Positions 216-29,565 of a stretch of 36,429 nt of DNA are shown piece by piece. Origin of the DNA: Azoarcus sp. (GTDB taxonomy: Bacteria; Pseudomonadota; Gammaproteobacteria; Burkholderiales; Rhodocyclaceae); NCBI GenBank assembly GCA_030656215.1, contig JAUSOD010000001.1:1-36429 (forward strand). Reading direction: 5' to 3'. The translations under genes and the position numbers were made by a program. The notes under the pieces were generated by a model that was not told the DNA's origin, ran no database searches, and was given only the letters and a program-made list of their open reading frames with translations. Every line of letters begins with the position of its first letter. Positions within the stretch are counted from its first letter, which is position 1.

Positions 216-260
216 TTAGCCCAAGGTCCAATGGGCGTCGAAGAACCCTGTTGATAAGGT
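216..260 (+). promoter_or_regulatory. Regulon promoter, site 1 (ecotin operon)
   Basis: The dyad TTAGCCCAAGGTCCAAT is at 216-232, then 22 bp, then the -10 TAAGGT at 255-260. Predicted transcription start is about 267, giving a leader of about 116 nt before the ecotin ATG. There is no TTGACA-like -35, and the dyad occupies that position, so an activator bound there would contact RNA polymerase directly (inference). It shares sequence and spacing with seven other sites in the window. Confidence 0.75.
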
Positions 261-382
261 ATAAAGATCTGCGATGTGCCCCGGTGCCCCGGACTGAATA
301 ACCAGTGCGGACCACGCCATGAAGCGAAGGCCAGAGACAGGGGGTCCGCCTCGCTCTCAATGAAAATATTAGGCGGTTCGAA

Positions 383-871
383 ATGAAGACAATTTTCTCT
401 GCACTGCTAGTCACTTTTGCCATGTTCGCCCAAGCTTTTGCGGCCGACATAATGCAGGCATTTCCGCCCGCCGAGGCCGGCATGGTGAGGCACGTCATTA
501 TTCTTCCTGCGCAGAAGGATGAGTCCGCATTGAAGGTGGAACTGATCGTCGGCAAGACGGTGGTCGCAGACGCTGCAAATCGATATTTTTTCGGCGGAGT
601 CCTTGAGGCGGAGAGCATTGCCGGGTGGGGGTACGAGCGCTACATTCTGCGCAAACTCGGGCCGATGGCCGGAACACTGATGGCCGTCGATCCGGATGCG
701 CCGAAAGTCGAACGCTTCGTCACGCTCGGTGGCGAGGAGCGCCTGCTGCGCTATAACAGCCGCATTCCGCTCGTTGTTTACGTTCCTGCCGATGTCGAGG
801 TCGCTTATCGCTTGTGGCGTGCCGATCCCTCCCCACGCTTTATGCGCAAAGTCGCCTTGCCGAATGGCTGA
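383..871 (+). CDS. eco: Ecotin, periplasmic serine protease inhibitor
   Basis: A 162-residue protein with a signal peptide ending near residue 20 (AQAFA). From memory it aligns along its whole length with E. coli ecotin: DESxLKVEL, GWGYxxY, LRYNSxxP and VxYRxW are all conserved. Ecotin is a periplasmic dimer that blocks trypsin-like, chymotrypsin-like and elastase-like proteases, usually host or predator enzymes. The reactive loop here reads GTLMAV against STMMAC in E. coli, so the P1 residue is Leu rather than Met84. Both cysteines of the E. coli disulfide (Cys50, Cys87) are replaced, by Ala and Val. The gene is first in a probable operon with a DUF4105 protein and a patatin, downstream of regulon promoter site 1. 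Family assignment is firm; altered specificity is inference. Confidence 0.93.
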   Translation: MKTIFSALLVTFAMFAQAFAADIMQAFPPAEAGMVRHVIILPAQKDESALKVELIVGKTVVADAANRYFFGGVLEAESIAGWGYERYILRKLGPMAGTLMAVDPDAPKVERFVTLGGEERLLRYNSRIPLVVYVPADVEVAYRLWRADPSPRFMRKVALPNG

Positions 872-978
872 ACGGCAATGCTCTTCAAGCGCGATGACGA
901 AGCCCTATGTTTCGCCTGCAACGGTGATCTTTGCCGTGCGCTCCTCATCCATCAGGAGCGCGGCAGCAAGGAGCCTGC

Positions 979-2001
979 ATGAGCGGTATCGTGACTCGAA
1001 TAGCCAGGACAACCGGCCTGTTAATGCTTGGCTTCCTGATGGCGGTGGCTGGTGGCTGGGGAGCACTTGCGCTCGCCTACTCGGGACCGGCCACCGAGAC
1101 CGTGCGCACCAGTCTGGCGGTGGCATTTGGCGTCGCAACGCTGGTCGCCGTGCTTGGGTTGCTGTTTCGGCGCTGGCGAGGACGCGCCCTTGTCGTCTAT
1201 GGGCTGATGTTTGCTGTGTTGCTCATCTGGTGGAGCGGGATCGAACCCTCCAATGAACGCGACTGGCAAACGGATGTGGCGGTGTTGCCCAAGGCGACGA
1301 TCGAGGGCGACCTCATCACCGTCCATAACATCCGCAATTTCGACTATCGCAGCGAAACGGATTACACGCCCGCCTACTACGACAGGCGCTTCGACCTGCG
1401 CAAACTGGAAGGTGTAGATCTGGTGGCGGTGTACTGGATGGGGCCGGCCATCGCGCATGTGTTCCTGAGTTTCGCCTTTGACGATGGCGAGCATCTTGCG
1501 ATTTCGATCGAAACGCGCAAGGAAAAGGGAGAGGCCTATTCAACCCTCAAAGGCTTCTTCCGCCAATATGAACTGTATTACGTGGTGGGCGACGAGCGTG
1601 ACCTCATCCGCCTGCGTACCAACTATCGTCACGATCCACCGGAGGATGTCTATGTGTACCGGCTGCAAGGGTCGCTTGAAGATGGCAGGCGATTGTTTCG
1701 CGAGTACATGCACCAGATCAACAGCTTGAATGCCACACCCGAGTTCTACAACACGCTGACGACCAACTGCACCACCAACATCTGGCTGAACTCCCGTGTG
1801 AATGCGGAGCACCTGCCATTCAGCTGGAAGATTCTCGCCAGTGGCTACGTGCCTGAATATCTGCATGAGCATGGCCGCTTGGCGAATGGCGACCAGCCCT
1901 TCGCCGTCATTCAGCAACGCGCCCATGTCAATTCCCGAGCGCATGCCGCGGACATGGCGGCTGATTTCTCGCGTCGTATCCGCGCAGCGGTTACACCATG
2001 A
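979..2001 (+). CDS. DUF4105 (Lnb N-terminal-like) membrane protein
   Basis: A 340-residue inner-membrane protein. Three hydrophobic segments lie near residues 10-34, 42-62 and 70-87, followed by a domain of about 250 residues, probably periplasmic. I chose the ATG at 979 because AAGGAG sits 5 nt upstream; an upstream in-frame start at 931 has no such signal. The C-terminal domain has the DUF4105 pattern: DWQTD, NIRNFDYR, AHVFLSF and TTNCTTNIW. His160 and Cys264 fall in the two most conserved blocks and could form a permuted papain-like dyad, as proposed for this family (inference). The substrate is unknown. It lies 107 bp after ecotin and 40 bp before the patatin gene, so probably in the same transcript. 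Confidence 0.85.
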   Translation: MSGIVTRIARTTGLLMLGFLMAVAGGWGALALAYSGPATETVRTSLAVAFGVATLVAVLGLLFRRWRGRALVVYGLMFAVLLIWWSGIEPSNERDWQTDVAVLPKATIEGDLITVHNIRNFDYRSETDYTPAYYDRRFDLRKLEGVDLVAVYWMGPAIAHVFLSFAFDDGEHLAISIETRKEKGEAYSTLKGFFRQYELYYVVGDERDLIRLRTNYRHDPPEDVYVYRLQGSLEDGRRLFREYMHQINSLNATPEFYNTLTTNCTTNIWLNSRVNAEHLPFSWKILASGYVPEYLHEHGRLANGDQPFAVIQQRAHVNSRAHAADMAADFSRRIRAAVTP

Positions 2002-2041
2002 AGAACGGCTGTAGCGGTTCGATACCCATAAGGAGCAAGCC

Positions 2042-4300
2042 ATGAACGCCCCCTTGCATCGTCATGCGGCCATCACCGCCTCTTGTGTGGCGCTTTGTGC
2101 CATCTTGGTCGCGCTCCCGGCCCGAGGAGAAGCCGCCGACGAGTCATCCCCGCCGTCGGCAAGTGGCCCCGGCAAGCGCCCCAAGATCTGTCTTGTGTTG
2201 TCCGGGGGCGGCGCGCGTGGCGCGGCTCACGTTGGTGTGCTCAAGGTTTTGGAGCAGTACCGCGTGCCGATTGATTGCATTACCGGTACCAGCATGGGCT
2301 CCCTGGTAGGTGCTGCTTACGCGTCCGGGATGAGCGTCGAGGAGATGGAGACAACCCTCAAGGGGATCTCCACCGAATTGCTGTTTAAGGAGAAGCCGCC
2401 GCGCCAGGAGCTTTCGCAGAGGCGCAAGCAAGATGACTACAACATTTTTTTCGGCCCCGAGCTCGGGCTCCGTGAAGGTAGTGTGCAGTTTGGCAAGGGC
2501 GTGGTGACGGGCGTGCAACTCGAGTCGGTACTGCGCCAGCTCTCCAAGGTAAAGGGCTACCACGATTTCGATAATCTGCCGATTCCGTTCCGGGCGGTGG
2601 CGACCGACCTGGTCACCGGCAAGGCGGTCGTGTTTCGCGATGGTGAGCTTGCTAACGTCATGCGGGCCAGCATGTCGGTACCCGGCGCGGTTGCGCCGGC
2701 CGAGTTCGATGGCATGATCCTGGTCGATGGCATGCTGACCGGCAACCTGCCGGTGGAGGCTGCCCATGCAATGGGCGCGGACATCGTCATCGCGGTCAAC
2801 GTCGGTACGCCGCTGCTCAAGCGCGAACAACTGACCGGGATTCTCGGTGTTGCCGGACAGATGCTCAGCATCCTGACCGAACAGAACGTCCAGACTTCCC
2901 TGGCCCTGCTCAAACCGACGGACGTCTTGATCTCACCGGAACTGGGAGATTTCTCGACCGGAGACTTCGACCATTTGCCGCAGATCGCCCCGCTCGGTGA
3001 AGCGGCGGCGCGCAAGGTGGGCGAACAGCTCGCCCATTTGTCGCTTCCGCCTGCGGAATACGCCGCATTGCGCGAGCGTCAGACGATCACCGTCACCCCC
3101 GACCTGCGTCCAGTGGACGAGATTCGCTTCGTTAATTTGCAGCGGGTCAATCCCTGGGCTGCTGCGACCGTGATGGAAACCCGGGTCGGCCAGCCGATCG
3201 ATCAGCCGACGCTCGACAAGGACATGCGCCGCCTCTACGGAACGGACGATTTCGAGCATGTGAATTACCGCTTTCTCGAAGAACCCGGCAAGCGGGTTCT
3301 GGCGGTGGACGCAGTCGAGAAATCGTGGGGGCCGGACTATCTTCGTTTCGGTTTGGGTCTGTCGAGCGATTTCAGTGGCGATGCCTATTTCAATCTCCTC
3401 GCCAGCTACCGCAAGACCTGGATGAATTCGCTCGGCGGTGAGTGGCGCAGCGACGTGCAGGTCGGGCGCACGAGCAGCCTGCAGACCGAGTTCTACCAGC
3501 CGGTCGACAGCCGCGGCTACTTCTTTGTCGCCCCCCATGCCGCCATCGAGCGGCGCTCCACAACGGTCTATCAGGACGATAACCGCGTAGCGCGCTATGA
3601 GGCAACGTCGACTACGGCAGGTGCGGATATCGGCTCTCATTTGTTCCGATATGGCGAATTGCGCGTAGGTCTTTTGGGTGGCGTACTGAAACCCAAGCTG
3701 GATACCGGGCCGCAGATTCTTTCGCCGGGAGAATCCAAAGTCTCACTCGGGGCATACCGAGTCCGGCTGATTCTTGACCAGATCGACAGCGCTCATTTTC
3801 CGCGCACGGGCTGGCGCAGCAGCGCACATGTCTATGGTTCGCGCACTGGACTGGGCGCCGACGTCAGCTATACGAAATGGGATGTTGACGGTAGCGCTGC
3901 CTATTCCGTCGGAAACCATACCTTCAATTTCGGCTTCAAGGTGGGCGGAAAGTCCGGTTCTGGCGACTTGCCGCGATACGACCTGTTTCAGTGGGGAGGC
4001 TTTCTGCAACAGTCCGGCTACGCCACGGGGCAGTTGCTGGGCGAGAATATCAAATTCGCCCGTCTGATGTACTACCACCGCGTCTTGCCCGGCACGATGC
4101 TGGAAGGGGCGTATGGGGGTATTTCGTTCGAGCTCGGCAAGGTCGGCAACCCGCTGGTCGTCGACAATTCGGACGCAGTAATGAGATCGGCGGCTGTTTT
4201 CATTGCTGCAGATAGCCCGATTGGTCCTGCCTATCTGGGCTACGGGCGCGCTCAGGACGGAAACAGCAACTTCTATTTCTACCTCGGCCGGCCGTTCTGA
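2042..4300 (+). CDS. Patatin-like phospholipase with POTRA and outer-membrane barrel (PlpD-like, type Vd)
   Basis: A 752-residue protein with a signal peptide of about 31 residues. The patatin domain (about 48-330) has the oxyanion motif SGGGARG, the nucleophile in GTSMG (Ser84) and the catalytic Asp in LVDGM (Asp229). A POTRA-like segment follows (about 350-425). The rest is rich in alternating beta-strands and ends YFYLGRPF, with the terminal Phe typical of outer-membrane barrels. This is the layout of PlpD/FplA type Vd autotransporters, which place a phospholipase A on or outside the cell surface. The start has AGGAG 6 nt upstream. It is the last gene of the ecotin operon and converges on the MscS gene ending at 4327. 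Whether the patatin domain is released cannot be told from sequence. Confidence 0.93.
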   Translation: MNAPLHRHAAITASCVALCAILVALPARGEAADESSPPSASGPGKRPKICLVLSGGGARGAAHVGVLKVLEQYRVPIDCITGTSMGSLVGAAYASGMSVEEMETTLKGISTELLFKEKPPRQELSQRRKQDDYNIFFGPELGLREGSVQFGKGVVTGVQLESVLRQLSKVKGYHDFDNLPIPFRAVATDLVTGKAVVFRDGELANVMRASMSVPGAVAPAEFDGMILVDGMLTGNLPVEAAHAMGADIVIAVNVGTPLLKREQLTGILGVAGQMLSILTEQNVQTSLALLKPTDVLISPELGDFSTGDFDHLPQIAPLGEAAARKVGEQLAHLSLPPAEYAALRERQTITVTPDLRPVDEIRFVNLQRVNPWAAATVMETRVGQPIDQPTLDKDMRRLYGTDDFEHVNYRFLEEPGKRVLAVDAVEKSWGPDYLRFGLGLSSDFSGDAYFNLLASYRKTWMNSLGGEWRSDVQVGRTSSLQTEFYQPVDSRGYFFVAPHAAIERRSTTVYQDDNRVARYEATSTTAGADIGSHLFRYGELRVGLLGGVLKPKLDTGPQILSPGESKVSLGAYRVRLILDQIDSAHFPRTGWRSSAHVYGSRTGLGADVSYTKWDVDGSAAYSVGNHTFNFGFKVGGKSGSGDLPRYDLFQWGGFLQQSGYATGQLLGENIKFARLMYYHRVLPGTMLEGAYGGISFELGKVGNPLVVDNSDAVMRSAAVFIAADSPIGPAYLGYGRAQDGNSNFYFYLGRPF

Positions 4301-7065: not shown

Positions 7066-7188
7066 GTCTCGAGACGGCAGGCGCAGTCATCAACGAGCGG
7101 ACAAGTCAAATAGCAAGGCCGGGATAGAGCGTCGTCCGAACAGTGCTTTGTCGAGTCCTCCGCGTAAGCGCCTGCCATTGGAGTGAGA

Positions 7189-7683: not shown

Positions 7684-7701
7684 GGTGGATTCCTCGCGAC
7701 A

Positions 7702-16633: not shown

Positions 16634-16678
16634 TTAGCCCAAAGTCCAATTACCACCTTCTTGCGCAACTGTTAATTT
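16634..16678 (+). promoter_or_regulatory. Regulon promoter, site 3 (stand-alone receiver)
   Basis: The dyad TTAGCCCAAAGTCCAAT is at 16634-16650, then 22 bp, then the -10 TAATTT at 16673-16678. Predicted start falls at about 16685, the A of the receiver ATG, which would make the transcript leaderless. The first seven bases of the left arm equal those of site 1. Confidence 0.7.
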
Positions 16679-18494: not shown

Positions 18495-18527
18495 TTTGGG
18501 ATGGTCTCCGAGAAAGGTGGATTGCCG

Positions 18528-19262
18528 TCAGCCCAACGGCAGAAGAACGAGGCCATACAGCAGGCCGCCGAAAAGAAAAGGCCAGAATCGCCCATCCTTT
18601 TCGGCGGGCAGTTCCAGGATCAGGCTGTTGATGATCACGGCGCCCGACAGGAAGGCCAGCAGCAGCGGTATCAGGCTGGCAGGTAGATCGAGCAGCAGGG
18701 CGCTCGCCCAGCCGGTGAGCGCCATTGCGGCGAGCACGAAGCGACCGGTGCGACGATAGTCGATACCGTATTCGTGGCTCAGCTCGCGGTTAATCGCGAG
18801 GCAATGAAAGCCCATGGCGATCGTGTATAGCCCGATGGAGGCGTGATGTTCTTCGAGGCTGCGCAGCAGCAAATAGGCCATCAGCCACGCGTAAGCTGCG
18901 AAGCCGCCGATCTGGACGCGAAAATCCAGGCGGCTGGGCTTTCCGTCGGTCGCACTTAGTTGGCTCGTGTGAAAGTGCTTGAAGCCATAGAAAGTCAGGA
19001 AGCCCGCCAGCGCCAGGTAGTAGATCGCCATGCCTTCATACGGCAGTGGCATCGGCGCGGTTTCCGTAAAGGCATGCCTTGCGCCGTGCAGTTCCGGCAT
19101 GACATGAAGAAATACGTAGGCGGCTGCCATCCCGCCGCCAAACGAGGTGATGCTGCGCGGTGTGAGCAGCCAGCCGAGTAAACGTGCGCGCTCGCCAACG
19201 AGGAAGGCGGCCGCCAGCACGAGTGCGGCGCCGCCCGTTTTGACAATGAAAGAGGTCTCCAT
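18528..19262 (-). CDS. Polytopic membrane protein, unknown (faint ZIP-like motif)
   Basis: A 244-residue protein with about eight hydrophobic segments. YVFLHVMPELHGAR in an early helix recalls the H-x-x-P-E motif of ZIP metal transporters, and a histidine pair (EEHHAS) lies further on. This could point to a distant ZIP relative, but the similarity is too slight to name a substrate. The start may be the ATG at 19262 or a TTG at 19274, which overlaps the DUF202 stop and has AAGG 5 nt upstream. It is the middle gene of a three-gene minus-strand operon. Confidence 0.7.
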   Translation of the reverse strand: METSFIVKTGGAALVLAAAFLVGERARLLGWLLTPRSITSFGGGMAAAYVFLHVMPELHGARHAFTETAPMPLPYEGMAIYYLALAGFLTFYGFKHFHTSQLSATDGKPSRLDFRVQIGGFAAYAWLMAYLLLRSLEEHHASIGLYTIAMGFHCLAINRELSHEYGIDYRRTGRFVLAAMALTGWASALLLDLPASLIPLLLAFLSGAVIINSLILELPAEKDGRFWPFLFGGLLYGLVLLPLG

Positions 19263-19270
19263 GCCGGATC

Positions 19271-19825
19271 TCAAAGAAGCCTTGCGATGATGCTGACGAA
19301 CACGGCAAAGCCGACCCAGGAGATGATGAGCGCCATGATGAACGACGGGCGCTTCCAGATCGTGATCGTCGCAACAGGCTGCATGCCCTTTATCGAGAAC
19401 CAGTACTCGACGGTGCCCATAAGCATTGCCAGGGTGCCAAGGCCCACGAGGAAGAGGCCGACGTCGCGCGGATCGTATTGCTGGGCAATCACACCGACGT
19501 CACTGCCCTTGAGTCCTTCGAGTACCTTGTAAATGGTGAAACCGAAGCTGATCATCGACAACGCAGTCCGCAACCAGGCCATCAGCGTACGATCGGCCCC
19601 CATGATCGTCCGCTTGACAGCGAGGGAGGTCCGGTCCTGAGCCAGTTCGTTGGATGACTTGAGTTCGTGCGCCAGTTCCTTGACCGCCTTGCCATCCTTG
19701 CTTTCTGTTTGTTTCATGCCGGAAAACAAGCCATTGATCCTGCCCATCAATGAAGGATGGGTTTGCTGCGCCTTCTGGTTCGAGGCCGCGCCGTCGTTCG
19801 GCGCTCGTTTGTCGTCACCTGTCAC
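19271..19825 (-). CDS. DUF202 (YidH-like) inner-membrane protein
   Basis: A 184-residue protein. The start is a GTG at 19825, with AGGAGG 5 nt upstream. The first 85 residues are polar and Lys/Gln-rich. The DUF202 domain follows: DRTLMAWLRTALSMISFGFTIYK, then LFLVGLGTLAMLMGTVEYW, then a third helix near the C-terminus. Small YidH/DUF202 proteins are inner-membrane proteins of unknown role. First gene of its operon, about 100 nt downstream of the predicted start of regulon promoter site 4. Confidence 0.85.
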   Translation of the reverse strand: MTGDDKRAPNDGAASNQKAQQTHPSLMGRINGLFSGMKQTESKDGKAVKELAHELKSSNELAQDRTSLAVKRTIMGADRTLMAWLRTALSMISFGFTIYKVLEGLKGSDVGVIAQQYDPRDVGLFLVGLGTLAMLMGTVEYWFSIKGMQPVATITIWKRPSFIMALIISWVGFAVFVSIIARLL

Positions 19826-19931: not shown

Positions 19932-19976
19932 ACCTTACGCGGAGCAGGCGCTGGAGGGCATTGGACCTTGGGCTTA
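19932..19976 (-). promoter_or_regulatory. Regulon promoter, site 4 (DUF202 operon)
   Basis: On the minus strand the dyad TAAGCCCAAGGTCCAAT covers 19960-19976, then 22 bp, then the -10 TAAGGT at 19932-19937. Predicted start is about 19925, with a leader of about 100 nt. It is back to back with site 5, 84 bp away between the two dyads. Confidence 0.8.
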
Positions 19977-20059: not shown

Positions 20060-20104
20060 TAAGACCAAGGTCCAATGGCGGGCGGATAGGCCGCAGCTTA
20101 GAGT
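20060..20104 (+). promoter_or_regulatory. Regulon promoter, site 5 (DUF3313-SYLF-MscS operon)
   Basis: The dyad TAAGACCAAGGTCCAAT is at 20060-20076, then 22 bp, then the -10 TAGAGT at 20099-20104. Predicted start is about 20111, with a leader of about 126 nt before the ATG at 20237. Confidence 0.8.
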
Positions 20105-20236: not shown

Positions 20237-20872
20237 ATGTTGATCAAACGTACACTCGTGCTTGCAGGCGCTCTGTTCATGTTGGCGCCGCAGGCATTTG
20301 CCGCTGACTCCGGGTTTATCGACAACCTCCCCGCGCTAGCCAAGGACGCCGACCGGCCGGGAGCGATGATCTGGACGAAACCGGGTCTTGATCGGTCGGC
20401 TTATACCAAGGTGATGATGGAGCCGGTCCAGATCTTCATCAGCCCGAATTCCGAATACAAAGGGGTGGATGCAAACGAAATGAAGGCGTTGGCCGACAGC
20501 TTTCATGAGATCGTGACCAATACCCTCGAGCCGGAGATCCCTGTGCTGAGCAAGGGAGGTCCGGGCGTAATCTACATACGCGCGGCCCTCACCAATGTAA
20601 AGCTGAGCGAACGCAAACGCGGCCTGTTGAGCTATACGCCAGTTGGTTTGGTGGTGAATGTCGCCATCGATGCGGCCGGTGGGCGCGTGTCGCTGAACGA
20701 TGCTGCGCTCGAGATCGAAATGCTCGACTCGGTCACCGGGGAGCGTCTGGGTGTGCTCATCGACAAGGCGCCGAAGGCTCCCGACAGCGACAAGCTGTCG
20801 TGGGACACGATCAGGAGCAACTTCACTTTCTATGCCGAACGGTTCAAGGAGCGGATGTTAGCGACGAAGTGA
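20237..20872 (+). CDS. DUF3313 exported protein
   Basis: A 211-residue protein with a signal peptide ending near APQAFAADS. I chose the ATG at 20237 because GGGAGG lies 4 nt upstream; an ATG at 20225 precedes that signal. DUF3313 features: WTKPGLDRSAYTKVMMEPVQIF, then VIYIRAALTNVKLSERKR and a long C-terminal helix-strand part with DSVTGERLGVLID. Members are often lipoproteins, but no lipobox Cys is seen here, so it may be soluble in the periplasm. First gene of an operon with SYLF, MscS and a membrane protein. Confidence 0.85.
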   Translation: MLIKRTLVLAGALFMLAPQAFAADSGFIDNLPALAKDADRPGAMIWTKPGLDRSAYTKVMMEPVQIFISPNSEYKGVDANEMKALADSFHEIVTNTLEPEIPVLSKGGPGVIYIRAALTNVKLSERKRGLLSYTPVGLVVNVAIDAAGGRVSLNDAALEIEMLDSVTGERLGVLIDKAPKAPDSDKLSWDTIRSNFTFYAERFKERMLATK

Positions 20873-20878
20873 TGCAGA

Positions 20879-20912
20879 TGCTGCGTACCAGTGGTCAGCC
20901 GCTGACGCAGCA
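20879..20912. repeat. 8-bp inverted repeat after the DUF3313 gene
   Basis: TGCTGCGT at 20879-20886 and ACGCAGCA at 20905-20912 are perfect complements. The hairpin may stabilise or attenuate the transcript, since the gap to the next gene is 194 bp. No T-run is present. Confidence 0.4.
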
Positions 20913-21066
20913 AACGGGCGTGCGCACCTTGGCCGCCCGCACAGCGGTTGGCCCGATCGTTGGGACTTACGCACTGCCTTGACCTTGCTGTTTCCGAACT
21001 TAATCCCGTCTCTTTCATTTCGCCGCGGCCTGAAGCCGCTGATAACCACCGGAAGGAGTTCAAGAC

Positions 21067-21633
21067 ATGTATGCCTCTACTAATCCCCGAAGCGCCAAGC
21101 TGATCCGGTTGGCGATGACGCTGCTGACCTTCCTTGCCGTCGGCGCGGCCCAAGCCGATTCCGCCCGCGAGATCGATGCTCACGCAGATGCTGCTTTGTC
21201 CGAGTTTCGCAAGTCCGTGAAGGGGGCTGACGAGTATCTGGCCGCGGCGAAGGGTGTGCTGGTGGTGCCCGAAGTCAAGAAGGTCGGCCTCGTTGTCGGC
21301 GGACAGTGGGGTGAGGGCGCCTTGCGCATTGATGGCAAGACGGTCGATTACTACAGGATGACGGCCGCATCGGTCGGTTTCCAGGCCGGCGTCCAGCAGG
21401 CGAATTACCTGTTCGTGTTCCTGACCGAGGAGGCCCTGAGCACATTCCGCAAGGGTAAGGGATGGGACGCGGGTATCGATGCTGGGGTCACGCTGATCGA
21501 CGAGAGCGTTGGCGCATCGGTAAGCGCACTGAAGGCCAAGTCGTCTGTTGTGGCCTTCGTTTTCGGCAAGGAGGGATTGATGGGAGGCTATTCGCTGAAG
21601 GGGCAAAAGCTGAACAAGTTCAAGCCGGAGTGA
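21067..21633 (+). CDS. SYLF (YSC84-like) lipid-binding exported protein
   Basis: A 188-residue protein with a signal peptide ending near GAAQADS and AAGGAG about 10 nt upstream of the ATG. The SYLF/YSC84 domain fills the mature part: AAKGVLVVPEVKKVGLVVGGQWGEG, YYRMTAASVGFQAGVQ, DAGVTLIDESVG and VFGKEGLMGGYSLKG. In eukaryotes this domain binds phosphoinositides and actin; in bacteria the role is unproven, though a role with membrane lipids is plausible. The gene lies between DUF3313 and the remnant/MscS genes. Confidence 0.9.
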   Translation: MYASTNPRSAKLIRLAMTLLTFLAVGAAQADSAREIDAHADAALSEFRKSVKGADEYLAAAKGVLVVPEVKKVGLVVGGQWGEGALRIDGKTVDYYRMTAASVGFQAGVQQANYLFVFLTEEALSTFRKGKGWDAGIDAGVTLIDESVGASVSALKAKSSVVAFVFGKEGLMGGYSLKGQKLNKFKPE

Positions 21634-21661
21634 TCAGCGCTGTATCGGCACATGCTGATCA
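21631..21661. repeat. 8-bp inverted repeat at the SYLF stop
   Basis: TGATCAGC at 21631-21638, which includes the SYLF stop, and GCTGATCA at 21654-21661 are perfect complements. They could form a weak hairpin before the pseudogene remnant. Confidence 0.4.
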
Positions 21662-21689
21662 GATTGAAACTCGCTCCTTGCCCGGGATA

Positions 21690-21775
21690 AATTCGGCGAT
21701 CGGGCCGCTGCACTTGGCGTATGGCACAAGGATGCGGGTGAAGGCAACGTCTACCTGTACCTCGGCCCCTTGATC
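21690..21775 (+). pseudogene. Frameshifted remnant of a patatin-type barrel C-terminus
   Basis: One frame (21699-21725) reads IGPLHLAYG. Two bases later another frame (21728-21769) reads KDAGEGNVYLYLGP. Together they match the end of the patatin barrel at 2042-4300 (IGPAYLGYG, then AQDGNSNFYFYLGRPF). The match covers conserved barrel-closing strands, so this is most likely a decayed second patatin/Omp85-like gene, with the rest deleted. It lies between the SYLF and MscS genes. The fragment is short, so confidence is moderate. Confidence 0.55.
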
Positions 21776-21823
21776 AACTTTTTTGACTGCTCGGACCAGA
21801 AACGCTGAGAACCGAGGTGTTTG

Positions 21824-23521
21824 ATGGCTAGCGTGCTACGCATTCGGAACAAATCGATTCGGTGGCTGGCAGGCTGTTTTTTGCTCTGTTTCCTCGCATT
21901 GGCTACGGTGGCCAGTGCAGAGGGCGTTCGCGCTCAGACGTCTGCAACGGATGAGGAAGTCAGTGCGGAGGTTGTCATCGACGGCACTGCGCTTTTCAGG
22001 GTCCGGGGCACGTCGGCCTATCCCGCCGACAAGCGCGCCCAGGCCATTGCCGAGCGAATCGTCAAACTGGCCGCAGACCCCGGCTTCAAGCGCGAGGATT
22101 TGCGCATCGACGAGTCACAACCCGGTCTGGCGTTAGTCATGGCGGGGAGTACGCAGGTGATGGCCGTCTATGCTGCCGATGCGGAACTCGAAGGGGTCGA
22201 TGCGCGGACGCTGGCGGCGACGGTCGTCGTCCGGGTCGGCGAAGCACTCGAGGCCTGGCGGCAGGATCGGCGGCCGGAGACCTTGGTTCGCAACGGACTG
22301 TATGCGGCAGGCGCCACGCTTGCCCTGTGGCTGGGGCTGTGGATGGGCTCTCGCCTGATGCGCCGCTGGCGCGGATTTACCGAGAAGCACATCGGAACGA
22401 AGATCCACGACGTCAATGTGCTCGGCTTCAGGGTCTTCGGCGCTCAGCAAATGTGGGCGGTGCTCACTGGCGTGCTGAACCTTATCTGGTTCGCAGCCAT
22501 CCTGGGGGCTATTCATGTGTACCTCAGCACCGTACTGCTGCTGTTCCCATGGACGCGCGGCTTCGCGATCGATCTGATTGACCTCCTGGTGCACCCGCTG
22601 CGCACTATCGGGCTCGGCTTCATCGCGGCGCTGCCGGATCTCATCTTCCTCGCGGTGCTGTTCGTCCTGGTCCGCTATGTGCTGAAGCTGATCAAGCACT
22701 TCTTCGACAATGTTGCGGTCGGCCAGCTCACCCTCGCGGATTTCGAGCCAGAGTGGGCACTGCCGACTTATCGTCTGGTCAAGGTCCTGCTTATTGCCAT
22801 CACGGCCGTAGTGGCCTACCCCTATATCCCGGGATCGGATTCTGATGCGTTCAAGGGTATGTCGCTGCTGCTTGGTGTGATTGTTTCGCTAGGTTCGTCC
22901 TCGGTGATCGGCAACGTGATTGCCGGTTACACCATGACCTATCGCAGGGTGTTCAAGCTTGGCGACCGGGTGAGGATAGGGGAACATCTTGGCGACGTGC
23001 ACGAGGCCCGGCTGCTCGTGACCCACTTGCGGACGCTCAAGAACGAGATCGTTGCGATTCCCAACTCCCTGATCCTCGGTGGTGAGGTGGTCAATTACAG
23101 CAAGCTGGCCGGCAAGGAGGGGCTGATTCTGCATACGACGGTCGGCATCGGCTATGAAACGCCGTGGCGTCAGGTCGAGGCCATGCTGTTGGAGGCGGCC
23201 GCCCGCACGCCCGATCTGCTGCGCGAGCCACCGCCCTTCGTAATGCACCAGAAGCTCGGCGATTTCTGCGTCGAATACGAGATCAACGCTTACTGCAAGG
23301 ACGCCCACGCCATGTTCAGGCTGTACACGGAATTGCAGCGCAACATTCTGGATGTCTTCAACGAGTACGGGGTGCAGATCATGACGCCTGCCTACGAGGG
23401 GGATCCGGTCGATCCGAAAATCGTGCCGCGGGGTCAGTGGTATGCGGCGCCAGCCCGGCCTCCCGATCGGCCCGACGAGGTGTCGAGCGCAAGCCCGCAG
23501 TCAGGAGGGGATCGCACATGA
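21824..23521 (+). CDS. MscS-family mechanosensitive channel
   Basis: A 565-residue protein. I chose the ATG at 21824 because GAGG lies 6 nt upstream. A signal-like N-terminus (ending VASAEG) leads into a periplasmic domain (about 35-150). Several membrane helices follow (near 160-180, 215-245, 255-285, 315-335). The MscS core has SLGSSSVIGNVIAG, RRVFKLGDRVRIG and VAIPNSLILGGEVVNYSK. Channels of this class release solutes under tension. It overlaps the following gene by 4 bp (ATGA) and belongs to the operon from promoter site 5, the second MscS-type gene in the window. Confidence 0.9.
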   Translation: MASVLRIRNKSIRWLAGCFLLCFLALATVASAEGVRAQTSATDEEVSAEVVIDGTALFRVRGTSAYPADKRAQAIAERIVKLAADPGFKREDLRIDESQPGLALVMAGSTQVMAVYAADAELEGVDARTLAATVVVRVGEALEAWRQDRRPETLVRNGLYAAGATLALWLGLWMGSRLMRRWRGFTEKHIGTKIHDVNVLGFRVFGAQQMWAVLTGVLNLIWFAAILGAIHVYLSTVLLLFPWTRGFAIDLIDLLVHPLRTIGLGFIAALPDLIFLAVLFVLVRYVLKLIKHFFDNVAVGQLTLADFEPEWALPTYRLVKVLLIAITAVVAYPYIPGSDSDAFKGMSLLLGVIVSLGSSSVIGNVIAGYTMTYRRVFKLGDRVRIGEHLGDVHEARLLVTHLRTLKNEIVAIPNSLILGGEVVNYSKLAGKEGLILHTTVGIGYETPWRQVEAMLLEAAARTPDLLREPPPFVMHQKLGDFCVEYEINAYCKDAHAMFRLYTELQRNILDVFNEYGVQIMTPAYEGDPVDPKIVPRGQWYAAPARPPDRPDEVSSASPQSGGDRT

Positions 23522-24729
23522 CAGACCGGCGCTCCAAACCGCAGGAGGAGACGGGACGTGACCGCCCGTACTTTTCCCCTGTGCTCGGCGGCCCGCTATT
23601 CCTGCTGTTGTGTCGCACCCGCCTGTCAACCGATGAGTTGCTGTTGCTCAAACGGCGCGTTGTCATCGTCGCGCTGATTGCCTGGCTGCCGCTGTTGCTG
23701 CTCGCTGTGATGGAAGGCCGGGCGTTTGGTGACGAGGTCGCGGTGCCGTTTTTCTACGATTTCGCGGTACACATCCGTTTTTTGCTGGCCCTCCCGCTGC
23801 TATTCGTGGCGGAGGTAGTTGCGCATCAACGCATCCGCCCGGTGGTCAAGGCATTTGAGGCCAGAAACCTGATCCCGCCCGATAGCCGTGCGCGTTTCGA
23901 TGCCGCGCTCAACTCGGCCTTCAAGGCAAGAAACTCGGTGTTCGCTGAGTTGGTGATCATCGCGCTGGTGTATGGCGTCGGCTTCGTGGTGATCTGGAAG
24001 CAATACCTCACGTTCGACGGTTCGGCATGGTTTTCGATGCTGTCGCCCACCGGTGCAGGCTTGTCGGCCGCGGGACTCTGGTACGGCTATGTGAGTTTGC
24101 CGATCTTCCAGTTCTTGATGCTGCGTTGGTACTTCAGGGTCTTCATCTGGGCGCGTTTCATGTGGCAGGTGTCGCGAATCCCGCTTTGCCTGGTGCCTAC
24201 CCATCCGGATCGCGCGGGCGGGCTTGGTTTTCTGGCGCACTCGGTCAGCGCCTTTGTGGCATTGGCCCTGGCGCACAGCGTCGTACTGTCCGGTCAGTTG
24301 CTCAATCGTATTGTGCATCTGGGCGCGAGCCTGCCCGAGTTTGCGATCGAGATTGGTGCCATGGTCGTGTTCATGCTGCTGCTTACGTTGGGGCCGCTGG
24401 TGGTATTTGCCGGGCAACTGGCGCAACTGAGAAGAACCGGGCTCGATGAGTACGGCGTACTCTCACAGCGTCTGGCACGCGAGTTCGACACCAAGTGGTG
24501 CCGCGGTGGGGCACCGCATGACGAGGCCTTTCTGGGCAGCCCTGATATTTCCGCGCTGGCCGACATGGGCAGTTGCCATGAGGTGATCAAGGATATGCGG
24601 CCGGTGCCCATCACCACCGAGGCACTGATTCAGCTGGTCGTGGCAATATTGCTACCGCTGCTTCCGCTGGCGCTGACCATGGTGTCGTTTGAAACGCTTA
24701 TTGGGGCTTTGATCAATCTGTTGTTCTGA
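23518..24729 (+). CDS. Polytopic inner-membrane protein, unknown
   Basis: A 403-residue protein. The ATG at 23518 overlaps the MscS stop, and AGGAGGGG sits 7 nt upstream. About seven hydrophobic segments are visible, with a soluble loop at about 300-345. Patterns include PYFSPVLGGPLF, RWYFRVFIWARFMWQVSR and LVPTHPDRAGGLGFL. I know it only as a conserved membrane protein. Translational coupling to an MscS gene suggests a linked role at the membrane (inference). It ends the operon just before a strong bidirectional terminator. Confidence 0.75.
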   Translation: MTDRRSKPQEETGRDRPYFSPVLGGPLFLLLCRTRLSTDELLLLKRRVVIVALIAWLPLLLLAVMEGRAFGDEVAVPFFYDFAVHIRFLLALPLLFVAEVVAHQRIRPVVKAFEARNLIPPDSRARFDAALNSAFKARNSVFAELVIIALVYGVGFVVIWKQYLTFDGSAWFSMLSPTGAGLSAAGLWYGYVSLPIFQFLMLRWYFRVFIWARFMWQVSRIPLCLVPTHPDRAGGLGFLAHSVSAFVALALAHSVVLSGQLLNRIVHLGASLPEFAIEIGAMVVFMLLLTLGPLVVFAGQLAQLRRTGLDEYGVLSQRLAREFDTKWCRGGAPHDEAFLGSPDISALADMGSCHEVIKDMRPVPITTEALIQLVVAILLPLLPLALTMVSFETLIGALINLLF

Positions 24730-24816: not shown

Positions 24817-26202
24817 TTAGAATCGAATGCCGACACGCACACCGGCAATGTAGGTCGTATCCAGATCCTTGAAGTTCTGATTCGAATCGAGCGCCTTGTT
24901 CAGGGCAGGAGAGATGATCTGGAAACTGGGCGTGATGCTCAGCCAGGGGGTGATCGACGCGTTGTAGTACAGCTCGACAACGTCTTCACGATCCAGGCCG
25001 AGATCAAAGCGTTCACGAAGGTAAGGGACGAAGTCATCGCTGAACTCGGCACGCGCCCAGCCTAGGCCGAAATCGTCATTCGGGCGGCCCGGCACCACAC
25101 CCTTGCCAACCACACCCAGAGAGTAGCTGTACTTGATCGGGTTCGCTTTGCCGTCACTGACACCGACACTGAAGAAGGTGCCGATACCGCGCTTCGGGTC
25201 ACCGGCAGGCTGCCAGACAAACTGTTCGAAGCTGTAGACGGCTGCCCAGGTCTCCGACTCCTTGTTCAAGGGGACTGGCGGGATGGCGACAGGCGCCGGA
25301 TGGGCTGCGAGAATCTCACTGAGGATCGGGCCGGGATTGCCGAGCCGGGGAAAACGCTCGGTGAGCAGAAGCCCGGCGATGTTCGACGGATCCTGGACGA
25401 GGGACGTGCGGTCCTTGTTGCTCCAGGCCACCGTCAGGTTCTGGTGGCCGGGGAGCCCCCAGGGCCTGATCTTCACGTCCAAGCTGGCGAGCGCCATCAA
25501 TCCGTCGTCAAAGGCTTCACTCAGGTCGTCATCCATGATGGTGCCATTTGCATCCAGCACCATGCCCGCCAGCGTCACATCATGGGTGGGGAGGTACACG
25601 ACGCCCGCACCATAGGCCGACAATGGAACCATGGCGAGTGCGAGCGGGAAGTTCAAGCTCGTGTTCTGGAATCCGGTGGTGTAGTCACCATGCAACACGT
25701 TGGTCGGGGCGATGGCGTTGATCTTGCCCAGGAATACCCCAAATTGGTGGCTGAGAAACTGGGTGTAGGTGAACTCCTGCAGGCCAGTGTCACGTTCGAC
25801 GGTCGGCAGCATCCACGACATATTGGCCGGCACCAAGGCCCCGCTCTCCTTTAGGAGATGTTCCCCAAAGCTGCTCACCGTCTGAATCTTCAAGAAACCG
25901 CCTGGCCAGAGCCCCAGTTTTTGAGAGTCCAGGTTGAGGGTGAAGATCGCATTGCCCCAATTGCCACTGGCGGTGTCCCGCCCGCCGCTGGTAATCGTTT
26001 GCGGCATCCAGTAGACGTCCAGGTCGACCACGATGCCCTTCCTGGCGAAGTCGTCACGCACGCCCCCCCAGTCACCGGTCAAGCGGGCGCGTGATGCGAG
26101 ATCACCGCCCCAGGTGTCAGGGGTGTCGTAAGGCATGGCCTGCACGGGCATGGATATGCCGAGCGCTGATAGCAAGGCGCCTAGTCCGAGTACTTTTTTC
26201 AT
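24817..26202 (-). CDS. oprB: OprB-type carbohydrate-selective porin
   Basis: A 461-residue outer-membrane porin with a signal peptide ending near MPVQA. OprB features: RLTGDWGGVRDDFARKGIVVDLDVY near the N-terminus, GKINA, NFPLALAMVPLSAYGAG, WSNKDRT, and a C-terminal VGIRF ending in Phe. OprB porins pass sugars and related solutes through the outer membrane. The gene lies 70 bp after the sulfatase gene on the same strand, so it could import sulfated sugars or release products (inference). It is the last gene of the transcript from promoter site 6. Confidence 0.9.
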   Translation of the reverse strand: MKKVLGLGALLSALGISMPVQAMPYDTPDTWGGDLASRARLTGDWGGVRDDFARKGIVVDLDVYWMPQTITSGGRDTASGNWGNAIFTLNLDSQKLGLWPGGFLKIQTVSSFGEHLLKESGALVPANMSWMLPTVERDTGLQEFTYTQFLSHQFGVFLGKINAIAPTNVLHGDYTTGFQNTSLNFPLALAMVPLSAYGAGVVYLPTHDVTLAGMVLDANGTIMDDDLSEAFDDGLMALASLDVKIRPWGLPGHQNLTVAWSNKDRTSLVQDPSNIAGLLLTERFPRLGNPGPILSEILAAHPAPVAIPPVPLNKESETWAAVYSFEQFVWQPAGDPKRGIGTFFSVGVSDGKANPIKYSYSLGVVGKGVVPGRPNDDFGLGWARAEFSDDFVPYLRERFDLGLDREDVVELYYNASITPWLSITPSFQIISPALNKALDSNQNFKDLDTTYIAGVRVGIRF

Positions 26203-26272
26203 GTTGGTGATCTCTTCTTCAAGTTGTCAGTCGCCCGCGGGGATTGTCGTGCCACGCCGCGAGGGCAGTAAG

Positions 26273-27943
26273 TCAGAGGTCGTGGACTGCGGGGGTTGCC
26301 ACCCAGCCGCCATCGACACCGCCCGGCAACATCTGCCCGATGTCCTCGCCTACTTCCTCGTCGATCAGCTTGTTCAGCTTGGCATTCATCACTGCAAGGA
26401 GCTCGGCGTTCTTGATCGGGTCCATGGCGAGGTTGTCGAGTTCGTGCGGATCGTTCTGGAGATCGAAAAGCTCGACATCGTTGAGCTCGAACAGTTCGTC
26501 GACTGACGTCGGCCGGTTGTGCTGCTTGGGCGAAAAGTAGCGGGTGAACTGGTAGCGGCCGTCGAAAACACTGCGGATCGCGCCGCGCTTGCTCATGTCG
26601 GGTCGCAGGCCGGACTCCTTGATCTTCGCGGCGCCGCCCGGCTGTGCGAGGAACGCGCTGGCCTTCTGCAGGAAGCTGCCGTCCAGCGAGGCGAACATGT
26701 TGAAGCAGTACAACTGCCCGTCGCGCACGGTGTCGAGGTCGGCCTGTTCCGGCGCGGCGAGCACCGGCGAGAAGTCCTTGCCCGGCAGCGTGTGGGCGAT
26801 CTCCGCCTTCTTTTCCGGGCTGGCATTGGTGAGCGCGACCAGGGTCGGCGCGATATCCAGGTGCGTCGTGACCGCCTTGCAGCACTTGCCACCGGGGTAG
26901 GCTGGGTGGGCCACGATCAACGGCACGTTGTTCTGCTCGCGGTAGGAGGTCGCGCCCTTGCCGGTCATCTGGTGTGCGCCACCGAGCTCGCCGTGGTCCG
27001 AGGTCAGGATGACGATGGTGTTCGAGGCCAGCCCGCGGTCTTCCAACTCGTCGAGCACCGTCATGATGTGACGGTCCACATCCTGCAGGGCGTTCAGGTA
27101 GAAGTTCTGGCGCTTGTGCCAGCGCCATTCCTCGTTCGCCGGGATCGGGCCGGTCATGACGTCGTTCCCGATGGTGTGGTCGGTGTGGGCGGCGGGGCGC
27201 CCGGGGGCGTCGATCGGCTGGGTGAAGCTGGCGGGAAGATCGATGTCCCACTGGTTCTTGTACATCGCATGCGCCGGATCGCCGGCGAGGTGGGTCAGCG
27301 CGTTCTTCGCCTGCACCGGCTGGCCGGGCTCGTCGGTGTTGTAGAACATCACGTCGTGCGGGTTGACCAGGTTCACCGCGAGGAACCACGGCTTCTGCTG
27401 CTGCGCAAGCTCTGCGGCCTTACCGCGCAACCAACTCGCCGCGGCGGCTGCGATCATGCCGTCGTGCAGATACCCGCCCTGGGTGTGCGCAATGATGTCG
27501 CCAACGCCAAGGTAGTCGGAGAACCCGTAGGCTTCCATCTCCTTGGTGAAGATCTTCTGCGGCGCCGCGAGGGTGTTGTCGGTCTCGAACTCCCGGGTGA
27601 GGTGCCATTTGCCCTTGTAGGCCGTGTAGTAGCCGGCGTCACGAAGGAGATGCCCGAGCGTCTTGATGTCGGTGGACATGCTGCTCATCCAGGGGAAGTT
27701 CGTGTTGTCGAACATCTTGGTCTGCTGGATGTGACGGCCGGTATAGATCACCGAGCGCGAGGAGGTGCACACGCAGGAGTTGATGCGATGGTTCTCGAAA
27801 ATGACACCGCACTTCGCCAGTCGCTCGTGTGCAGGAAGCTGGTAGTCCGCAGGCAACTCGCCGGGGCGGAAGTAGCGCTCCTGATCGGTGACGATAAACA
27901 CGATGTTGTACGGTACGCCAGTCGTTTGCTCGACGATGCTCAT
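26273..27943 (-). CDS. Type I sulfatase, Cys-type
   Basis: A 556-residue protein of the alkaline-phosphatase fold. I chose the ATG at 27943: AAGGAGG lies 8 nt upstream, and a longer frame to 28012 has no such signal. The metal site starts VTDQER, with DHGELGGAH further on. The formylglycine motif reads C59-T-S-S-R-S...TGR: Cys at the modified position, but Ser where the usual (C/S)-x-(P/A)-x-R has Pro or Ala. No signal peptide is seen, so it is probably cytoplasmic. It lies 70 bp upstream of the OprB gene and is divergent from the maturase gene. Substrate unknown; choline- or sugar-sulfate hydrolysis is possible. Confidence 0.9.
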   Translation of the reverse strand: MSIVEQTTGVPYNIVFIVTDQERYFRPGELPADYQLPAHERLAKCGVIFENHRINSCVCTSSRSVIYTGRHIQQTKMFDNTNFPWMSSMSTDIKTLGHLLRDAGYYTAYKGKWHLTREFETDNTLAAPQKIFTKEMEAYGFSDYLGVGDIIAHTQGGYLHDGMIAAAAASWLRGKAAELAQQQKPWFLAVNLVNPHDVMFYNTDEPGQPVQAKNALTHLAGDPAHAMYKNQWDIDLPASFTQPIDAPGRPAAHTDHTIGNDVMTGPIPANEEWRWHKRQNFYLNALQDVDRHIMTVLDELEDRGLASNTIVILTSDHGELGGAHQMTGKGATSYREQNNVPLIVAHPAYPGGKCCKAVTTHLDIAPTLVALTNASPEKKAEIAHTLPGKDFSPVLAAPEQADLDTVRDGQLYCFNMFASLDGSFLQKASAFLAQPGGAAKIKESGLRPDMSKRGAIRSVFDGRYQFTRYFSPKQHNRPTSVDELFELNDVELFDLQNDPHELDNLAMDPIKNAELLAVMNAKLNKLIDEEVGEDIGQMLPGGVDGGWVATPAVHDL

Positions 27944-27974
27944 GACGCCAGCCTCCTTGATGATCTGTCGGTCA

Positions 27975-28019
27975 ATCATAGAAGAAGGCCGCGAGGCTGA
28001 CGATGGGACCAAGGTCCAA
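27975..28019 (-). promoter_or_regulatory. Regulon promoter, site 6 (sulfatase-OprB operon)
   Basis: On the minus strand the dyad TTGGACCTTGGTCCCAT covers 28003-28019, then 22 bp, then the -10 TATGAT at 27975-27980. Predicted start is about 27968, leaving a 25-nt leader that includes the ribosome binding site of the sulfatase. Read on the plus strand the same dyad is a near-perfect consensus, but no -10 lies at the right distance that way, so I assign it to the minus strand. Confidence 0.75.
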
Positions 28020-28106
28020 TGCCCGATAACCTGGGTAGAGGTCCAGCGCCGGCAAAAAACTTGACCCTCGCCATCGCAAGGGAGTTGATCAAGGGGGCCT
28101 TGGAAC

Positions 28107-28151
28107 TAGGGCCAAGGTCCAATATGCCAATTTCGACTGAAGCGATATCGT
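28107..28151 (+). promoter_or_regulatory. Regulon promoter, site 7 (sulfatase maturase)
   Basis: The dyad TAGGGCCAAGGTCCAAT is at 28107-28123, then 22 bp, then the -10 TATCGT at 28146-28151. Predicted start is about 28158, with a leader of about 91 nt to the ATG at 28249. Sites 6 and 7 share the 306-bp divergent gap between sulfatase and maturase. Confidence 0.75.
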
Positions 28152-28248
28152 TGGTGGGGTGAGGCAACGCGGGTCGATCCTGGCCGGGCGCCAGTCACGC
28201 GCATTGCTCGAAAAAGATGACGTTGCGCCAAGCGAGAGGGCCCTGTGC

Positions 28249-29493
28249 ATGCAATCGAACCTGTCCCATTACCACCTCCTCGCCAAGCCGGCGGGCGCCG
28301 CGTGCAACCTGGGTTGCCAGTATTGCTTCTTCCTCTCCAAAGAGAATCTCTATCACGGCGAGAGTCACCTTATGGACGAGGCCACGCTCGAGACCTACAT
28401 CGCGCAGTTGATGGAGTCCTCACCCGGGCCACAGGTTGACGTCGCATGGCAGGGCGGCGAGCCGATGCTGCGTGGGCTGGACTTCTACAAACGTTCGGTC
28501 GCACTCGCCGAACGCTATCGAAAGCCCCATCAGCAGATCCTCCACACCATACAGACCAACGGCACGCTGATCGACGACGAGTGGGCGCGCTTCTTCAAGC
28601 AGCATAACTATCTGGTCGGACTCAGCATCGACGGGCCACGCGCCCTGCACGACACCTATCGTGTCACCAAGAAAGGCGCTGGCAGTTTCGACGAGGTGGT
28701 TCGCGGCTGGAAGCTCCTGCGCAAGCACGGCGTGGACGTGAATATCCTCTGCACCGTCCATGCCGCCAATCAGGACCATCCGCTCGAGGTCTACCGCTTC
28801 TTTCGCGACGAACTAAAGGCGGAATACATTCAAGTCATTCCGATCATCGAGCGCGCCACCCTGGACACCATCACTGTAGCCAACAAGGGTTGGGGAGGGC
28901 TGAAAGGCACGGATCGCCCCCTCTACAAGCAGGAAGGCAGCCTGGTCACCGAGCGCACCGTGAACGCAGAGAAGTTCGGCCACTTCCTGAACAGCATCTT
29001 CGATGAGTGGGTAAAGCGCGATGTCGGCAAAGTCTATGTAACGACCTTCGACATTGCACTCGGCAGCTGGTTGGGTCAGCACAACGCCTGCATCGTCTCG
29101 CCCACCTGTGGTAACGCGCTGGCCCTGGAGCACAACGGCGACGTTTATTCCTGCGACCACTTCGTCGAACCGGATCACCTGTTGGGCAATATCAAGGACA
29201 CGCCGCTTGGCAGGTTGGTCAGGTCAGAAAAGCAGAGCCGCTTCGGGCAGGCCAAGTACGACACCTTGCCCAAGTATTGCAAGGAGTGTCCTGTCCTCTT
29301 CGCCTGCTATGGCGAATGCCCACGCAACCGCTTTATCAAGACGCCCGATGGCGAGGATGGGCTGAACTATCTGTGCGCCGGCTACAAGGGATTCTTTACC
29401 CACATCGATTCGGCAATGAAGACCATGGCGAATCTGATCAAGCAAGGGCGCTACGCTGACGAGATTCTGACCTTGCCGAACGGCACACCCTGA
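28249..29493 (+). CDS. Anaerobic sulfatase-maturating enzyme (radical SAM)
   Basis: A 414-residue radical SAM enzyme that oxidises the sulfatase active-site Cys or Ser to formylglycine without oxygen. The cluster motif is Cys19-x3-Cys23-x2-Cys26 (ACNLGCQYC). A C-terminal SPASM domain follows, with Cys-rich motifs (CGNALALEHNGDVYSCDHF, YCKECPVLFACYGECPRNRF, LCAGYKGFF) for two further 4Fe-4S clusters. Length suits the family (about 370-410). I chose the ATG at 28249: GAGAGG is 9 nt upstream, while a GTG at 28159 sits at the predicted transcription start. It lies between two sulfatase genes that are its likely substrates. Confidence 0.92.
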   Translation: MQSNLSHYHLLAKPAGAACNLGCQYCFFLSKENLYHGESHLMDEATLETYIAQLMESSPGPQVDVAWQGGEPMLRGLDFYKRSVALAERYRKPHQQILHTIQTNGTLIDDEWARFFKQHNYLVGLSIDGPRALHDTYRVTKKGAGSFDEVVRGWKLLRKHGVDVNILCTVHAANQDHPLEVYRFFRDELKAEYIQVIPIIERATLDTITVANKGWGGLKGTDRPLYKQEGSLVTERTVNAEKFGHFLNSIFDEWVKRDVGKVYVTTFDIALGSWLGQHNACIVSPTCGNALALEHNGDVYSCDHFVEPDHLLGNIKDTPLGRLVRSEKQSRFGQAKYDTLPKYCKECPVLFACYGECPRNRFIKTPDGEDGLNYLCAGYKGFFTHIDSAMKTMANLIKQGRYADEILTLPNGTP

Positions 29494-29521
29494 TGCCCCC
29501 AGCGTTCAAGGCTGGCATGAC

Positions 29522-29565
29522 TTGGACCAAGGTCTAATGGCGCGCAAATGCCCAGCGCCTAGACT
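29522..29565 (+). promoter_or_regulatory. Regulon promoter, site 8 (sulfatase 2)
   Basis: The dyad TTGGACCAAGGTCTAAT is at 29522-29538, then 21 bp, then the -10 TAGACT at 29560-29565. Predicted start is about 29572, with a leader of about 69 nt. This is the only one of the eight sites with a 21-bp gap. Confidence 0.75.

Follow-up and report, generated by a model that had tools for sequence, protein, structure and literature searches.

Two-component systems of the FixJ/NarL type that control aromatic catabolism, such as StyS/StyR and TodS/TodT, combine a PAS kinase with a REC-LuxR regulator. StyR-like regulators use the box ATAAAC-N4-GTTTAT and the recognition residues Lys175, Val176, and His179 (PMC5874301), and the high-affinity main site of StyR lies at about −40 (PMC2442086). 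A pair of the same composition is encoded in a contig of Azoarcus sp. (Rhodocyclaceae; assembly GCA_030656215.1, contig JAUSOD010000001.1), analyzed here over its entire 36,429 nucleotides (hereafter, the window). This window carries eight copies of a box whose core is the 16-bp palindrome TWRGRCC-WW-GGYCYWA, trimmed from a 17-mer described in a first-pass annotation of the same DNA, with a −10 hexamer 23 bp past the core. Both kinds of box are 16-bp palindromes with a 6-N4-6 arrangement and inner AC/GT. The main StyR/TodT site lies at about −40; for the window box, a center at about −43 is predicted from the box and the −10. However, the outer half-site is ATAA in StyR/TodT and TWRG in the window, so that the boxes differ from ATAAAC-N4-GTTTAT. 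In addition, whereas StyR/TodT target aromatic catabolism, the presumed targets in the window are envelope and sulfatase genes, with a receiver gene under the same box.

These features very probably constitute a self-contained two-component regulon, in which the phosphorylated regulator would activate eight units through the 16-bp palindrome and the −10. Because the same layout recurs in related bacteria, the eight sites look like a real regulatory circuit rather than chance. The boxes, their spacing, their recurrence, and their link to regulators with a common recognition helix are read directly from the sequences. The boxes are the following:

Box 1, 216..231, + strand: TTAGCCCAAGGTCCAA, −10 TAAGGT 23 bp on; precedes the ecotin, DUF4105-type, and patatin genes.
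Box 2, 13250..13265, − strand: TTGGACCAAAGCCCAA, −10 TACGAT 23 bp on; precedes the secreted-protein gene 12955-12350.
Box 3, 16634..16649, + strand: TTAGCCCAAAGTCCAA, −10 TAATTT 23 bp on; precedes the lone receiver gene.
Box 4, 19961..19976, − strand: TAAGCCCAAGGTCCAA, −10 TAAGGT 23 bp on; precedes DUF202 and the genes after it.
Box 5, 20060..20075, + strand: TAAGACCAAGGTCCAA, −10 TAGAGT 23 bp on; precedes DUF3313-Ysc84-MscS.
Box 6, 28004..28019, − strand: TTGGACCTTGGTCCCA, −10 TATGAT 23 bp on; precedes sulfatase 1 and the OprB porin.
Box 7, 28107..28122, + strand: TAGGGCCAAGGTCCAA, −10 TATCGT 23 bp on; precedes the anaerobic sulfatase maturase.
Box 8, 29522..29537, + strand: TTGGACCAAGGTCTAA, −10 TAGACT 22 bp on; precedes sulfatase 2.

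All eight 17-mers were recovered at the coordinates and on the strands given in the first-pass annotation, together with all of its −10 hexamers, at 22 bp after the 17-mer in seven sites and 21 bp in the 29522 site. Its caveat about the orientation of the 13249 and 28003 sites is settled by the presence of TAnnnT at 22–24 in the minus-strand reading only. In contrast, its statement that nearly every operon has a site stands for eight transcription units and fails for the histidine kinase–response regulator operon, the minus-strand block 4327-11286, where the palindromic matrix scan found no own box above 8.9 bits, and gene 17243, whose expression under a box would require read-through from the receiver gene. 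Scanning four of the boxes (those between 12900 and 21100) revealed no full sigma-70 promoter, as should be the case for activator-dependent promoters. A second box at 28100-28115 overlaps box 7 via a common half-site, giving three consecutive half-sites (28100-28122) upstream of the sulfatase maturase.

A chance origin of the boxes was rejected on the basis of shuffles, permuted matrices, and a genome-wide scan. There are 11 matches with at most three mismatches in the window (including reverse readings and one overlapping box), vs 0.31 expected from shuffles. With a palindromic matrix, eight sites score at least 20.7 bits, the overlapping ninth (28100) 18.4, and all else at most 8.9, although this gap is partly circular because the matrix derives from these same sites, and fairer tests lie outside the window. 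Among 500 column-permuted palindromic matrices, none gave eight matches of at least 20 bits (maximum, one). In a genome-wide scan, proposed in the first-pass annotation and performed with patterns instead of the matrix, the 17-mer pattern TWRGNCCAAGGTCCAAT with at most two mismatches has eight matches in the 5.08-Mb genome of this Azoarcus, all in this contig. Likewise, in the scan of order genomes, the matches of the 16-mer TWRGVCCWWGGTCYAA in this genome are confined to the contig. A mobile repeat as the source of the boxes was rejected because their flanks differ, and similar contexts were dropped before the offset count described below (from 94 to 80 sites). A foreign contig was also rejected: the tetranucleotide correlation is 0.95–0.98 with six other stretches of the same genome vs 0.91–0.94 with three stretches of other genomes, a measure that separates own and foreign stretches only modestly. 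The GC content is 59–61% over the first 30 kb and 65% at 30000-36429, rising near the end of the box-bearing block; with this GC content and a composition that fits the rest of the genome, the cluster may be an acquired island.

The recurrence of the box was assessed in other genomes (G numbers designate genomes, G000 being this Azoarcus, and L numbers fetched stretches). Own genome included, matches with at most one mismatch occur in 12 of 297 genomes of the family, and matches without mismatches in 9 of 399 genomes of the order; in family f31, 35 of 249 genomes were matched by the pattern and 23 by a backwards control. Only G000, G007, and G114 were taken as not chance-like among the strict family matches. 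Those in G008, G021, G045, G137, G147, G157, G163, and G178 were rejected as chance-like, without TAnnnT at 22–24, as was that in G275, with TAnnnT at 22; the strict order matches in G497, G537, G574, G609, G614, and G624 also lack TAnnnT at 22–24. Two boxes lie directly downstream of a 53%-identical regulator in G007, three are present in G114, and G544 contains five promoters, two of which use the same box on opposite strands; TAnnnT stands at exactly 23 bp in each case. Box 4 and the gene order following it are also found in L037, a stretch of G114. Across 80 non-own sites of at least 15 bits, TAnnnT at offset 23 occurs 28 times in 160 orientations (25 of the 80 sites), against 0.67 expected, and 0–4 times at any other offset from 5 to 44. 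Many f31 sites have CATCAT- or CACTAT-like hexamers at 23 in place of TAnnnT. The proposal that a dyad at the −35 place and a −10 at fixed spacing define a regulon is thereby extended beyond the window, as this box also occurs in other genomes, again followed by a hexamer exactly 23 bp on. Six weaker sites in G544 (10.3–16.3 bits) lack TAnnnT at 23; the weaker boxes of this genome (10–16 bits) surround a Ysc84 gene (L065 11404-16695) and may be auxiliary sites.

Four congeneric genomes gave no match to the box in the family scan. The best relatives of the window regulator in these genomes have E-values of 1e-47 to 4e-45 vs 8.4e-151 for itself, and three of them have helices of other types (L016, L018, and L017, the L017 regulator being identical to that of L018).

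The candidate reader and its kinase are encoded side by side:

13379..15979, + strand: sensor histidine kinase with PAS domains, HisKA, and HATPase; hydrophobic N-terminus by eye.
15976..16605, + strand: FixJ/StyR-type response regulator, REC and LuxR/GerE helix-turn-helix (HTH); the likely start, TTG 15976, overlaps the kinase stop.

The kinase open reading frame (ORF) opens at 13250, its likely start being ATG 13379 by comparison with L038. Its hydrophobic N-terminal region (13379-14200) corresponds to no Pfam family, but the L038 kinase retains it (40% over residues 48–418). The closest solved relative of the regulator is StyR (1yio), followed among full-length matches by FixJ 5xso. Its best NCBIfam model is FixJ (196.2 bits, below the 255-bit cut-off), and the kinase obtains 279.5 bits with the FixL model, not reaching the cut-off of 850. 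In the alignment, the StyR recognition residues Lys175 and Val176 are kept but His179 is replaced by Ala; therefore, the regulator is a neighbor of StyR rather than StyR itself. The helix EKT[IV]K[VI]HR[AG]R, with the Lys kept and the His replaced by Ala or Gly, is common to the first seven regulators located next to boxes, while other regulators show helix types KTVEVHR or VTVKVHRHN.

A profile of these seven regulators (A1) was applied to 17 genomes in which the box had matched and to 20 in which it had not, of our own choice from the f31 scan plus G394. At 260 bits or more, a line drawn after the scores were seen, it was found in 14 of the 17 vs 4 of the 20 (Fisher p 0.0002, relatedness ignored). 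In the four exceptions (G697, G756, G799, and G821), relaxed boxes followed by a hexamer at 23 lie next to the regulator. In the low-scoring genomes with matches (G778, G849, and G873, of genus g158), the regulator helix is VEKTIKVHRAH, and a box followed by TAGCCT at 23 separates the regulator from a receiver gene. The search was then widened to 36 more genomes with a match, including six that had supplied A1 rows. A box with its hexamer within about 1.5 kb on each side accompanies 24 of 36 regulators with the helix EKT[IV]KxHR[ASG][RH] vs 0 of 24 without it, a comparison that was not blind because the pattern had been widened to EKT[IV]K.HR[ASG][RH] after G394 and the g158 genomes were seen, and in which close relatives make up many of the rows. 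When TAnnnT is required at exactly 23, the counts are 22 of 36 helix-matching loci vs 0 of 24 others (60 loci, 3.6 kb fetched). Eight of the 12 helix misses are f31 genomes with boxes 11–13 kb off on the same contig and with CATCAT, CACTAT, GACTAT, or GACCAT at 22–23 (mostly 23), not TAnnnT. As for the other misses, G114 has two boxes with TAnnnT within 10 kb, G725 one box with TACGTT on another contig, and no box with hexamer was found for G769 and G624.

On a tree of 75 regulators and StyR (duplicates left out), the helix label needs three changes vs a mean of 25.7 in shuffles, with 0 of 500 shuffles as low. In addition, 533 plasmid records gave protein-level matches to the regulator, from which five of the 40 rows listed were chosen by organism. 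Paraburkholderia phenoliruptrix pSYMBR3459 (helix AEKTVKVHRAR) has three boxes of 21.7–25.1 bits with TAnnnT at 23 and one weak site without it, and two boxes, scoring 20.1 and 17.3 bits, adjoin the regulator on the Eleftheria terrae plasmid (SEKTIKVHRAR). For the three records with StyR-like helices, from Cupriavidus necator N-1 and from two Rhizobium plasmids, no site exceeds 12.2 bits. Searching the plasmids with the L116 regulator under a stricter limit gave no matches. Both box-bearing plasmid records belong to Burkholderiales, and the regulon is probably one of this order. Finally, the order regulator-box-receiver is found in the window and at least 13 relatives (L132, L133, L141, L144, L146, L147, L148, L150, L151, L116, L119, L064, and L203). 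The box thus appears to track one regulator group across genomes, in favor of the first-pass suggestion that the regulator encoded at 15976, beside the PAS kinase, is its likely reader.

Besides the non-blind choice of the helix pattern, several observations weigh against the proposed regulon. The backwards control of TWRGNCCAAGGTCCAAT has six matches in the own genome at two mismatches, and in the family and order scans backwards controls matched more genomes than the pattern did, so that single matches mean little. No hexamer of any type sought is present at 22–24 in 32 of the 80 non-own sites, including those of L085, L128, and L131, even though the L085 and L128 genomes do carry the regulator. 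The E. terrae plasmid has CATACT at 24 and GAAGAT at 23 as its hexamers. On the tree, the helix group is not one clade: its starred branches force at least two changes, L035 falls outside, and L012, with another helix and no good box, falls inside. In the window scan, the kinase-regulator operon itself has no correctly oriented box of its own.

Other readings of the box were weighed. Thermus NsrR belongs to the CRP/FNR family. In one rival reading, the box would serve a dimer of that family encoded elsewhere, which would activate in class II fashion from about −41.5, with the adjoining regulator incidental. The box position suits class II CRP/FNR sites. Published FNR-type boxes with a similar core are those of HcpR in delta-proteobacteria (ATTTGACCNNGGTCAAAT; PMC545781) and of Thermus NsrR (CTTGACCNNGGTCATGG; PMC5748679), and a CRP/FNR-like ORF was assigned by eye in L037 (at 5914). 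However, the half-site here is TWRGACC, unlike TTGACC, and a Pfam scan of the 29 window ORFs shows no CRP/FNR domain (the rest of the genome was not searched). Moreover, the box tracks regulators of one helix type across families and, in the window as well as in 13 or more relatives, stands between the regulator gene and a receiver gene, which makes a CRP/FNR reader very improbable.

The boxes could instead be sites at which the response regulator or another dimer represses by blocking RNA polymerase, since the dyad overlaps the −35 region, where palindromes can repress. The rigid 23-bp spacing to a poor −10, the lack of a full sigma-70 promoter in the scan of four boxes, and the activation by StyR from a similar place (PMC2442086) render repression improbable, if slightly less so. 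The remaining explanation, an extended promoter of an alternative sigma factor, would account for two conserved blocks at a fixed distance. Nevertheless, a 16-bp near-perfect palindrome forms the upstream block, and in one copy (L064 16449) TAnnnT is present at 23 in either direction. The scanned ORFs include no sigma-factor gene, the weak hits to sigma-70 region 4 being cross-matches to the HTH of the regulators themselves; we regard this explanation as extremely improbable. Activation by the response regulator thus remains the reading that we prefer, its class II-like character, as proposed in the first-pass annotation, being supported by position only.

The genes that would be under its control are the following:

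383..871, + strand: ecotin.
979..2001, + strand: Lnb_N periplasmic-domain protein; presumed start.
2042..4300, + strand: patatin-like phospholipase with Omp85-type C-terminus.
12350..12955, − strand: secreted protein; signal peptide by eye, no NCBIfam family.
16685..17065, + strand: lone receiver-domain protein; probable target and feedback element.
18117..19825, − strand: DUF202 protein and two uncharacterized downstream genes (18528-19274, 18117-18494); order kept in L037.
20237..24729, + strand: DUF3313, Ysc84/SYLF, MscS channel, and membrane protein; likely operon.
24817..27943, − strand: sulfatase 1 (26273-27943) and OprB porin (24817-26202).
28249..29493, + strand: anaerobic sulfatase maturase (radical SAM/SPASM); likely start 28249 in an ORF open from 28159.
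29638..32010, + strand: sulfatase 2.

Seven of the eight first genes in the window were scanned with Pfam, and the 12353 ORF against NCBIfam only. Relatives of the 12350..12955 secreted protein adjoin boxes in other genomes, and the maturase matches TIGR03942 with 471.9 bits (cut-off 349.45). The ATG of the receiver gene lies 6 nt past the −10 (10 nt in G394, L075 3010), and its message is therefore probably leaderless. In G114, a piece (L037 13929-14690) that matches the last 254 residues of sulfatase 2 with 91% identity lies about 1 kb from a transposase-like ORF assigned by eye (L037 11463-12962), suggesting mobility. In other genomes, the first genes after boxes include 12 receivers, 8 Ysc84/SYLF, 3 PPK2, and 3 AI-2E transporters among 57 scanned of 79 ORFs, counting orthologs from related genomes separately and leaving out the eight of the window and 14 judged spurious or redundant by eye. 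In G007, an AI-2E transporter gene stands where others have the receiver gene. In P. phenoliruptrix, for which the gene table is incomplete, a TrkA-C gene follows one box at a distance of 286 bp, and a cation:proton antiporter gene follows another at about 420 bp. Our guess is that the signal or theme is envelope or ion homeostasis or stress.

In the mechanism that we propose, the PAS histidine kinase (13379-15979) would phosphorylate the FixJ/StyR-family regulator (15976-16605), whose dimer would bind TWRGRCC-WW-GGYCYWA at the −35 place, centered about 43 bp before the predicted start, and recruit RNA polymerase to the −10 (TAnnnT here) 23 bp past the box. Eight units would be switched on: ecotin/Lnb_N/patatin, the 12955 secreted protein, the lone receiver, the DUF202 group, DUF3313/Ysc84/MscS, and the two sulfatases with the porin and the maturase. 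The lone receiver would probably provide negative feedback, either taking phosphate from the kinase or competing for it. A broader proposal, to which we give somewhat less than even credence, is a hitherto undescribed, Burkholderiales-wide envelope/ion stress regulon, self-limited by a phosphate-draining lone receiver, in which the helix EKT[IV]KxHR[ASG][RH] would read the operator TWRGACC-WW-GGTCYWA, and the StyR helix ATAAAC. The regulator-operator-target set would offer a functional handle on poorly understood envelope proteins with one promoter type (DUF202, DUF2092, DUF3313, Ysc84, and DUF3141). In addition, the paired differences in helix and box relative to StyR provide a clean test of site choice by FixJ-family regulators, and the receiver gene under the same box a testable feedback design.

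The first-pass annotation knew of no published regulon with this motif, and searches of an open-access library revealed none for the motif or the gene set, which is weak evidence of novelty because most subscription papers lie outside that library. Searching for the exact letters led to the HcpR and NsrR boxes and otherwise to two papers on animals or plants. DosR (DevR) of mycobacteria, a NarL/FixJ regulator, also acts on palindromic boxes before many genes, but its box and gene set differ from those of the window. The lxa locus of Burkholderia cenocepacia is described as a large co-regulated locus in the same taxonomic order, a likeness by description only. The boxes of Thermus NsrR and of HcpR (TTGACC-NN-GGTCAA type) share the palindromic core GACC-NN-GGTC with the window box but have one base fewer between TT and the core and belong to other hosts and targets. 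The rhizobial FixL/FixJ pair supplies 5xso and the best NCBIfam model for the window regulator; the window pair nevertheless falls below the equivalog cut-offs and has different presumed targets. On sequence evidence, the locus is a real regulon, and its candidate FixJ/StyR-kind regulator, with an operator of its own and unusual targets, is new with respect to these systems.

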